Translations under genes and position numbers: made by a program
In this document: piece after piece, positions 52,810 to 59,444 of the stretch
Layout of the letters: the number at the start of each line of letters is the position of its first letter
Numbering within the stretch: position 1 is the first letter of the stretch
Source of the DNA: an uncultured Planctomycetales bacterium
GTDB lineage: Bacteria; Planctomycetota; Planctomycetia; Isosphaerales; Isosphaeraceae
Direction of reading: 5' to 3'
Assembly (NCBI GenBank): GCA_903926465.1
Contig: CAIYJE010000079.1
Location: 1 to 64,000, forward strand
DNA length: 64,000 bases
Notes under the pieces: model-generated
Databases searched by the model: none
Seen by the model: only the letters and a program-made list of their open reading frames with translations
Told to the model about the DNA's origin: nothing

Positions 52810-54540
52810 TTATCTTCGGATCAGTGGTTCTAACTCCTTGCGCAGGATCAAGGCCTCTAGCCAGTTGTGCAGGTGCAGTCCATCAACCTTGATGGGCATG
52901 ATGGTGCTGTTGGGAGCGACCTGGTCCATCCAGGTCGTTGCAATCGTGAACCATGCCTGGGCCTCGGCTTGCCTGCCTGGGCGTCGGCATTCTGTCATGG
53001 CCAACCAGAGCCAGGTCACCACCGCTTCGCCCGGTCGGTGTTCAACCTTCAGGCTCTCTTTCAACAACTCAGCCGCCTCGTCATTGCGGCCTTGGCGACA
53101 GGCCAGCGCGCCTCGCTCTGTGAGCGACCAATGCGCACCGCGTACACCCAATAACTCGGCCCCCGCCTTTGCCGCAGGAAAGGAGAAGTCTTTGGTTGAT
53201 TCTGGAGACAAGGTGCAAGCGCGGGCGGCGTGGTAGCCGCGGACCCCAAGCGTTCCGCTCTTTTCCAGCAATTCCGCACACCGCGCCTGGTAGCCAGGTC
53301 GGTCTCCAGAAAGCAGCAGCACGGCGGCAGACTCAAAGCCCGGTTCGCCATTTTCAAGCGCGACCGCCCGGAACATCTGGGCATATTCCTGTGCGGCCCC
53401 TCTCCAATCTCCCTGCATGGCTTTGGCCCGGGCAGCACGTTCGAATGCATTTCTTTCGGCCATGGCCGCTGGGCTCACAGGCTGAAAGCCAGGCCCGCCT
53501 TGCACAGGGTTGTGCATGGGAGACTGAGGCAACCTTGGATCTCCCGGCCGAAGTTCGGCGGGCGAGACCACGGCCGGAAAGCCCGCTACCCGCAACTTTT
53601 CCTGCTGCTCGGGCGTAAGCAAGGCGTAAATTTCATCATGCTTGGCCTTATTCCAGTCTTGGTAGCTCAGCATGTTCCATTGGCCCATACCCAGCAGCGT
53701 TCTCGCCCTTTGGCTGTACTTACCCCAGACCGTTCGGATCTGGGCATGCTGATGGGCATCGAGAGCCAGGATCTCATTCATGAGTTTCATCTGGTCCTCG
53801 CCATCCTGGAGAATCGCTCGCCCAAGAGTGGCAGAAAACGCATTCGGAGAGATGAGCTGATCAGGAGGAAGGGTCAGCGTGGTCACACGCAAGCCTCGCG
53901 CCTCTGGCTGGGCAGCGGATGGCGTTCCAGGGGCGGAAGGCTGGTCGATTGGTTGACCGACGTTCCGCGACGCCTTGAAACGGATGGGCCCCTCGTCAGC
54001 ATAGGTCATCCAACCAGACAGGGTGTTACCGCCGTCCTTGGAACTGACCTCAAGGCCGATGACCGACTGCCCCTGGCGTCCACCCACAATCCAGGTTCCG
54101 GCGTCATGCCAGGGGGCGGTTTCGCCGCCCCACTGGTCCTTGACCGCATAACTGTTGCTGCCCGCCAACGAGGCCTTGAAGTCAATCGGCCCCTCTCCAT
54201 GATAAGAGATCGTTCCCGAGAGACTCTGTCCTCCATCGTTCGAACGGAGCTTGATCGAAACAACACGCTGATTGTCACGGCTGCCAAGAACCCAGGTGCC
54301 GGCCGGATACCAAGGCTCGAATTCATCGCCCCATTGATTGGCTACCGTGTAGCTAGAGTTTGCGGCCGACTTCACCACATCTTCCGCAACACTATTCAAA
54401 GCCGTGATGGCAAGCGTTACACAAGTGGCCAGAAGACGGGCAGAGACGTTGCCCTTCCACCCCATGCGAAAATAATCAGCGTGCGAGTGCGCGGGAACGG
54501 AACCTTCTCGGTGGTTCGCTGCAACAGGGAAAGACACCAC
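52810..54540 (-). CDS. Exported OAA-type mannose-lectin (two repeats) fused to helical and planctomycete TPR domains
   Basis: A 576-residue protein. Residues 30-52 form a signal/anchor segment ending NSVA. Residues 63-124 and 130-191 are two repeats of the Oscillatoria agardhii agglutinin (OAAH) family. Repeat 1 has VANQWG, GTWVLGSR, NDGGQSLSGTISY and GEGPIDFKA. Repeat 2 has VKDQWGG, GTWIVGGR, KDGGNTLSGWMTY and DEGPIRFKA. The Trp, Arg and Glu that form each sugar site in OAA are kept, exactly 67 residues apart (W70/W137, R88/R155, E116/E183). A helical middle (about 230-320, LTPEQQEKLRVAGFP) and a TPR module ending WLEALILRKELEPLI follow; I know the latter from planctomycete kinases and sigma factors. 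GTG at 54540 has AAAAGGAG at good distance. The likely role is binding high-mannose glycans outside the cytoplasm. Confidence 0.87.
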   Translation of the reverse strand: MVSFPVAANHREGSVPAHSHADYFRMGWKGNVSARLLATCVTLAITALNSVAEDVVKSAANSSYTVANQWGDEFEPWYPAGTWVLGSRDNQRVVSIKLRSNDGGQSLSGTISYHGEGPIDFKASLAGSNSYAVKDQWGGETAPWHDAGTWIVGGRQGQSVIGLEVSSKDGGNTLSGWMTYADEGPIRFKASRNVGQPIDQPSAPGTPSAAQPEARGLRVTTLTLPPDQLISPNAFSATLGRAILQDGEDQMKLMNEILALDAHQHAQIRTVWGKYSQRARTLLGMGQWNMLSYQDWNKAKHDEIYALLTPEQQEKLRVAGFPAVVSPAELRPGDPRLPQSPMHNPVQGGPGFQPVSPAAMAERNAFERAARAKAMQGDWRGAAQEYAQMFRAVALENGEPGFESAAVLLLSGDRPGYQARCAELLEKSGTLGVRGYHAARACTLSPESTKDFSFPAAKAGAELLGVRGAHWSLTERGALACRQGRNDEAAELLKESLKVEHRPGEAVVTWLWLAMTECRRPGRQAEAQAWFTIATTWMDQVAPNSTIMPIKVDGLHLHNWLEALILRKELEPLIRR

Positions 54541-57443: not shown

Positions 57444-59444
57444 ATGGACATGCCACTCGGCAATCCGCTACTTCGGCCGCTCTCGATCTTGCTCATCGCA
57501 CTGTCGCTTTCCATTGGCTGGGGGATCCGGGGCGACTTCGGGCACGAATCGGGTGCCTGGATTCCGGGCGCACTGGCGGCCCTGGCCGTGTGCGCGCTCT
57601 CTGGGCGTGAAGACTGGCGGCGGCGGGCCGCGTACTGCGCAATGTTCGGCGGGCTCGGCTGGGGCTTCGGTGGGTCAATCGCCTACATGTACACCCTGTC
57701 GTTTGCAAGTTCTGGGCAGTGGGAGTCTGTTTGGTACGGGTACTTTGCAGCGTTCCTGGTGGGTGGGCTCTGGGCCGGTCTGGGTGGCGCAGGAACAGCG
57801 CTTCCGTTATGCATCGACAACGACCGACTCTCTCGACTGTTTGTGCCGTTCGGCTTCGTCTTCGTGGCATTGGTTTTGAATCAAGTGACACTTGGCCCCG
57901 TAGCGCACTGGCTCAGCATGGCGCATTCAACCGGCATGGACGGAACCTGGGCGCGGCAAAAGAGCCCGCTCTACTGGTTTGATGCCGACTGGTGGCCGGC
58001 CGTCTGGGCCGTGGCTGGGGTCTGTGCGTACGACCTCTGGGAACGACGGTTCGAAGGTGCAACTCGGCTTGCGCTGTTTGGGGCCCTTGGGGGGCTGAGT
58101 GGTTTTCTTCTCCAGGGTGCGTTAAACCTGGCCGGACTGACACCCCGGCTGGTAGCAATTCTGGTTGTCCCGCAAGGGGATCTCTCGGCGATCGATCCAG
58201 ACACGGGTAAGCCATTCGACCCGTCCAACCTGATGACCAACTGGCCGCAATTCTTCGGAGATTTCCCAGGGCATGTCGGCTGGCTGGTTGGGCTTGTTCT
58301 TGGGGTCGGTGTATATTTTTATCGGTATGGCAAGTGGCGGAACGACGCGGGGCTGTTTCTCTGGATGGCCATGGGGTGGCTGCTCTCGTTCCTGATCATG
58401 CCGGTACTGGGCTCGATCCCGTTTCAGCAGTATGGCGGATTCCGCCTGACCCCTCCTCGCAGTGACGACTGGGCGGGAGTTGTAGGGGTGTTTTTAGGAG
58501 CCTCGGCGTACGCTCTGCGAAACTCGATGGCGCCGGTGGCTTTGGCTGGGGCGCTCAACTTTGTGCTCGGCGGCTTGGGCTTCGCGTCGATCCACTTCCT
58601 GCGCGCCATGGTCCTGATCCCAGGCCATGCCGACCTACATCGGGCGACCGGCGGCACGCCCCCGGCATGGCGGCATTTCCAGAGCGCCAACTGGCACAGC
58701 ATTCTGGAGCAGTCGCAGGGTTTTGTCCTGGGCGTAGCCACCGCGCTTACCATGGCCGCGCTCTGGAGCAAGCTCACGCCCGAGTCTGACGATCGTAAAC
58801 TGCGGCGCTGGAACGACGTTTTCTCGATCGGCTTTGTTGTCTTCTTCATGACGTACATGAACGTCTTCAAGAATGTGGCCGAGTGGACAAGAAGCGATCA
58901 TCGGCTGGTGCCCGACCTGATGAAGGCCCCCTTGATTGAATCGATCGAGCTGAGCGCTTTGACCTGGTTCAACCTGGCCTGGCTGGCAATTTCCGCGTCG
59001 TTCGTGTGGTTGATGATCGTCCATCAACGGCGTGGGCTGGCCGTTGTCCCGCCCTCATGGCTGGGTCGTGGGCAAATCATCTATTTCCTTGTGCTCTGGA
59101 TCATGGTGATTGCCGACTTCGAGCGGTCGCTCAACGGTTTTGGCGAAGCACGGCTGGTGACCGAATGGGTCATCATCATGAATGCAAGTCTGGCAACGTT
59201 CCTGGTGATGGTAATTCCTGGCCCCGCGCTCAACGTGGAGGTGCGTGAACCGGCTCACTTTGGAAAACTGGTGGCCCGCGTTTGGATGATCGGCCTGCCG
59301 TGCGCAGCGATCATCTTATCGCTCTATGCACTGACGGTCTTCCGGGTCTACGGCAAGGCCGAGATCACCAGCGCACAATTCCGATGGGGCAGCCAGGCGG
59401 TGTGGCGTGTGAAGCCCATTCTGAAGAACCGAGCGCACCGTTAA
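57444..59444 (+). CDS. Polytopic membrane protein, conserved planctomycete type
   Basis: A 666-residue protein with about 14 hydrophobic segments spread over the whole length. The N-terminal motif IGWGIRGDFGHESGAWIPGALAALAV and the neighbouring FGGLGWGFGGSIAYM are striking glycine-rich membrane motifs that I have seen in unnamed proteins of Planctomycetota and related phyla. No transporter signature or catalytic motif is recognised. It may be a second start two codons later (MPLGNP). It ends before the repeat at 59481. Confidence 0.75.
   Translation: MDMPLGNPLLRPLSILLIALSLSIGWGIRGDFGHESGAWIPGALAALAVCALSGREDWRRRAAYCAMFGGLGWGFGGSIAYMYTLSFASSGQWESVWYGYFAAFLVGGLWAGLGGAGTALPLCIDNDRLSRLFVPFGFVFVALVLNQVTLGPVAHWLSMAHSTGMDGTWARQKSPLYWFDADWWPAVWAVAGVCAYDLWERRFEGATRLALFGALGGLSGFLLQGALNLAGLTPRLVAILVVPQGDLSAIDPDTGKPFDPSNLMTNWPQFFGDFPGHVGWLVGLVLGVGVYFYRYGKWRNDAGLFLWMAMGWLLSFLIMPVLGSIPFQQYGGFRLTPPRSDDWAGVVGVFLGASAYALRNSMAPVALAGALNFVLGGLGFASIHFLRAMVLIPGHADLHRATGGTPPAWRHFQSANWHSILEQSQGFVLGVATALTMAALWSKLTPESDDRKLRRWNDVFSIGFVVFFMTYMNVFKNVAEWTRSDHRLVPDLMKAPLIESIELSALTWFNLAWLAISASFVWLMIVHQRRGLAVVPPSWLGRGQIIYFLVLWIMVIADFERSLNGFGEARLVTEWVIIMNASLATFLVMVIPGPALNVEVREPAHFGKLVARVWMIGLPCAAIILSLYALTVFRVYGKAEITSAQFRWGSQAVWRVKPILKNRAHR

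Follow-up and report, generated by a model that had tools for sequence, protein, structure and literature searches.

OAA is a cyanobacterial anti-HIV lectin with a mannose-binding fold, and work on the lectins of its family has dealt almost entirely with them as free agglutinins active against viruses. In the 64,000-nucleotide stretch of planctomycete DNA analyzed here (the window), one gene places two OAA-family repeats between a predicted export signal and a long, largely helical C-terminal part. The 576-residue open reading frame begins with GTG, preceded 6 nt upstream by AAGGAG, although an ATG at residue 26 could also serve as the start, and its coordinates had been given correctly by an earlier reading made from the letters alone (the sequence-only reading). 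That it represents a new architecture made of known parts, found in one genome, is well supported by the analyses below (Table 1).

Table 1. Features of the lectin-TPR gene, with positions in the window
Feature	Residues	Position	Strand	Content or basis
Whole ORF	576 aa	52810..54540	-	signal segment, two OAA repeats, helical segment, TPR-like tail
N-terminal export signal (predicted)	1-55	54376..54540	-	hydropathy peak, read by eye
OAA/SBD repeat 1	~63-125	54166..54354	-	W70, R88, Q91, E116; G12->D72, G60->D120
OAA/SBD repeat 2	~129-191	53968..54156	-	W137, R155, Q158, E183; G127->R187
Linker and four-helix segment (modeled)	196-330	53551..53955	-	fold model; weak LTXXQ resemblance
TPR-like module	346-576 (~230 aa)	52813..53505	-	homology and fold model; ends in HNWLEALILRKELEPLIRR

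Two tandem OAA-family repeats span residues 62 to 192, as the sequence-only reading had claimed. The Pfam SBD profile (PF17882) matches the ORF in two stretches (E = 5.3e-34; 116.8 bits, cut-off 20), and the NCBIfam model LectinOAAFamily (NF050073) matches residues 66 to 191 (E = 4.1e-51; 172.2 bits, cut-off 150), both above cut-off and far beyond chance. Relatives with solved structures are MBHA, BOA, SfL, PFA, PTL, and OAA; PDB sequence matches include MBHA (2.8e-106), BOA (1.6e-82), PFA (4.6e-49), and OAA (~2e-43), and the lectin head is 48 to 60% identical to the solved relatives aligned with it. The repeats keep a register of exactly 67 residues (W70/W137, R88/R155, and E116/E183), and the Trp, Arg, and Glu side chains that contact glycan are complete in both sites, one formed by W70, R155, and E183 and the other by W137, R88, and E116. 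Spacing and retention had both been noted before; to these we add the supporting Gln, present in both sites (Q91 and Q158). In PTL the sites are formed by W10, R28, Q31, and E56 and by W77, R95, Q98, and E123, residues that contact the glycan or support such contacts (PMC8166773), and in the alignment these correspond to W70, R88, Q91, and E116 and to W137, R155, Q158, and E183.

An AlphaFold model of residues 54 to 195, built from 30 aligned family members, predicts ten strands with a pLDDT of 88.7. Its nearest solved structure is OAA itself (3obl; rmsd 0.7 Å over 130 columns, TM 0.97 by target), PFA, PTL, BOA, SfL, and MBHA superpose at 0.8 to 1.4 Å, and by the tenth structure match the E value has dropped to 0.018. 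The head is thus, as modeled, an OAA-family ten-strand barrel, as expected for the lectin part. The sequence-only reading had named two outcomes that would refute it, a profile search without an OAAH match and a model other than the OAA barrel, and neither was obtained. A search for a DNA repeat between the two repeats found none, and a recent duplication at the DNA level was rejected. Neither can a donor of the lectin be named, since in a tree of 59 OAA domains its branch is long (0.67) and unsupported.

The sites are not wholly conventional, and here the earlier account of the sugar sites was incomplete: Trp, Arg, and Glu are indeed kept, but three glycine replacements nearby (G12->D72, G60->D120, and G127->R187) had been missed. 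Among 113 other OAA domains, taken from the 80 best of 130 OAA loci found in GTDB species genomes and from one IMG/VR contig, glycine occupies G12 in 113, G60 in 112, and G127 in 112, with conservation at G12 and G60 somewhat inflated because the loci were found by conserved peptide patterns, one of which allowed Gly or Asp at G12 and the other at G60. G12 of PTL touches the glycan through its backbone amide (PMC8166773), so an Asp at this position need not abolish binding, and the other backbone-contact glycines that follow the Trp residues (G11, G78, and G79) are retained. The replacements nevertheless make specificity uncertain, such that a high-mannose ligand is not to be assumed, and, judging from these residues, binding may be weak, or directed at another ligand, in one site or in both. 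As a natural experiment, they could also show which parts of the site determine specificity.

The sequence-only reading had also proposed a signal segment, and the hydropathy profile, read by eye, agrees. The sole hydrophobic stretch of the ORF lies at residues 34 to 52, behind positively charged residues, and the segment has the layout of an export signal, with a long n-region, a hydrophobic core LLATCVTLAITAL, and an S-V-A cleavage pattern before E53. We saw no membrane anchor in the 576 residues and no lipobox; a Cys at position 40 does not qualify, since it follows a Thr and comes too soon within the hydrophobic core. Given the export signal and the lack of any other hydrophobic stretch, the most likely location is outside the cytoplasm, where the protein would be soluble and share a compartment with the related kinase tails described below. 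A transmembrane kinase receptor was considered and rejected, as the protein has no Pkinase domain and its hydrophobic span is confined to the signal segment.

The C-terminal module had been called a TPR domain known from planctomycete regulatory proteins. The second half of that statement stands, and the first is best reworded as TPR-like: Pfam TPR_12 reaches 16.4 bits on the tail, below its cut-off of 30.1. When residues 196 to 576 were modeled separately from the lectin, the tail was predicted with confidence (mostly >90) as all-helical, and the nearest Foldseek matches, among them MamA and consensus TPRs, were TPR proteins, at E values no better than 0.004. Homology and the predicted helical repeat fold together support a TPR-like assignment. 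Between lectin and tail the same model predicts a low-confidence linker (residues 196 to 231) followed by four helices of moderate confidence, in keeping with the helical segment that had been described there. This middle segment gave no convincing homologue (best E = 0.0078 in 45 genomes), and its resemblance to LTXXQ (Spy/CpxP-type) proteins is weak and below cut-off.

At E 1e-5, a profile of the tail has matches in 26 of 45 genomes from the order, most of them within ORFs 1,100 to 2,600 residues long; in the phylum, at E 1e-8, it has matches in only 5 of 294 genomes. Among the tail-bearing ORFs inspected, 21 carry a kinase motif, and all 21 have one hydrophobic span ~160 to 220 residues after the HRDLK motif with the tail beyond the span, in nearly all cases at the C-terminal end. 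The tail of our protein, up to 48% identical to kinase tails, therefore belongs with the predicted extracytoplasmic tails of single-span Ser/Thr kinases, a location in line with the published prediction that planctomycete kinases carry their TPR and WD40 parts mostly in the periplasm (PMC11032199). Unlike such kinases, it has neither kinase domain nor transmembrane span, and a lectin takes the place of the sensor part. A closer relative is encoded in the same genome, where a WD40 protein of 1,390 residues that has an export signal and lacks a kinase (G000:C89; L018:6514-10683) bears a tail 53% identical to that of the lectin protein; the two tails are sisters in the tree (100/99), within a clade that includes four kinases, and the proteins differ in the head, WD40 repeats in one and lectin in the other. 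The genome has ~45 Ser/Thr kinase genes. The profile finds the lectin protein and its WD40 paralogue alone there, and the link to kinases is weakened by the absence of a close tail copy on any of its own kinases.

The genes adjacent to the ORF encode DUF1549/DUF1553, DUF1501, Gfo/Idh/MocA, and DnaJ proteins, and none was recognized as a hydrolase or transporter. Scans for promoters and terminators gave site numbers not above those of shuffled sequence, and base composition, being close to that of the neighbors, gives no support to a recent transfer of the ORF. Elsewhere in the window, positions 57444 to 59444 on the plus strand encode a protein of 666 residues that is rich in hydrophobic stretches and gave no match to Pfam at E 0.01.

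We consider the chances about even that the protein is a periplasmic or secreted bivalent glycan-binding protein whose docking tail comes from the kinase-sensor repertoire. It would be exported and remain unattached, whether in the periplasm or beyond the cell; the head would form a bivalent OAA barrel with two sites for a mannose-type or related glycan, and the tail would serve as a TPR-like protein-docking module, as it may on the outer side of the transmembrane Ser/Thr kinases. The head would then capture or recognize a glycan, with the tail tethering the protein to a complex of partners in that compartment. That a glycan is brought to such a complex is suggested by the export signal combined with an outer-side docking module; computation shows the family and fold of the head, its site residues, the fusion, and the kinship of the tail with kinase tails of predicted outer location, and from these parts we infer export, glycan binding, docking, and any signaling. 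Four observations weaken this reading, namely that searches turned up no relative of matching architecture, that three glycines close to the sites, invariant or nearly so elsewhere, are replaced, that no kinase of the genome has a close copy of the tail, and that the neighboring genes indicate no partner. The surface glycan receptor suggested by the sequence-only reading becomes one possibility among others, given a protein with no membrane anchor or lipobox and with three glycines lost. A stronger version, in which the protein serves Ser/Thr kinase signaling in bacteria as a soluble co-receptor for glycans, a bacterial counterpart of lectin receptors, seems to us distinctly unlikely; here the OAA head would sense mannose-type glycans, the cell's own or foreign, and the tail would present the glycan state to kinases with related outer tails. 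A natural OAA fusion, predicted to be exported and joined to a module that signaling kinases carry on their outer side, offers a concrete and testable link from the lectin fold to a cellular partner system.

Other readings use the same parts differently. Planctomycetes are users of polysaccharides, and an apparently soluble exported lectin could hold imported polysaccharide for hydrolases while its TPR tail binds the enzymes, with no signaling involved. The neighboring DUF1549/1553-DUF1501 pair, usual in planctomycetes, is consistent with this, but the lack of a recognized hydrolase or transporter among adjacent genes and the fact that the family's known members act as agglutinins and not as catabolic binding modules make periplasmic glycan capture unlikely, though it keeps a real chance of being right. 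That the protein is instead a secreted agglutinin or defense lectin like the free OAA proteins, its tail passive and merely stabilizing or multimerizing, would suit the complete two-repeat barrel and the company it keeps, free lectins accounting for 78 of the 80 loci (the best 80 of 130). We regard it as rather improbable, because most of those others have a Met 7 to 28 residues before repeat 1, in most cases too short a distance for an export signal and spacer, whereas this protein combines an export signal with an extension of 380 residues, the tail of which is conserved in signaling proteins.

The lectin head might also have lost sugar binding altogether and persist as a scaffold, the protein acting through its TPR tail. 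Replacement of three glycines that are (nearly) invariant elsewhere, one of them a backbone contact in PTL, and the long lectin branch both point this way; W, R, E, and Q remain intact in both sites, which would be unexpected on so long a branch under relaxed constraint, and we judge such a loss very unlikely. Last, a lectin gene could have been wrongly joined to a TPR gene in the assembly, a draft of 207 contigs with 2.95% contamination, and the fusion is found in one genome alone. Against this, the frame runs for 585 codons without interruption inside a 102.7-kb contig, the lectin sits between signal segment and tail, a layout that an artefact could produce only through two wrong joins, the G+C at third codon positions of the ORF parts (0.55 to 0.75) overlaps that of the neighbor genes (0.68 to 0.76), and the sister of the tail is encoded in the same genome. 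A chimeric origin of the ORF is unlikely, and an assembly error of this kind would be extremely improbable.

With the OAA-family lectins (OAA, PFA/PFL, PTL, MBHA, BOA, and SfL) the protein shares the two-repeat ten-strand barrel, as modeled, and both W/R/E/Q site sets; unlike them it has an export signal, the C-terminal extension, and the three replaced glycines. We found no OAA protein in other planctomycetes (overlapping sets of 392 genomes taken from the phylum, 398 from the class, and 45 from the order), no protein with the same OAA-plus-TPR architecture in the genomes and loci searched, and no paper linking OAA with planctomycetes or describing a comparable OAA fusion. Plasmid and phage records yielded no OAA relative, and among viral contigs a single-sequence search gave no direct relative and an alignment search gave one, a four-repeat free OAA lectin on an IMG/VR contig listed as viral (L104; IMGVR_UViG_2547132142_000002).

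The 78 free lectins have two or four repeats, according to protein lengths derived from the frames between stops and from candidate Met starts. The view that family members consist of lectin repeats only holds for these and fails for the remaining two of the best 80 loci of 130, which are unrelated fusions. Both resemble our protein in joining an OAA pair to another domain, but their partners differ, they lack the TPR tail, and neither is planctomycete. In Okeania sp. SIO1I7 (L068:2309-4396) the OAA pair forms the C terminus of a protein of 696 residues that begins with a DUF7910/fascin-like part. The other, from an uncultured Anaerolineae (L093:1525-2271, CALECP010000225.1), has 249 residues in which an OAA pair (PF17882, 1.1e-40) is joined to two MVL repeats (PF12151, 1.3e-19), uniting two high-mannose lectin families in one chain.
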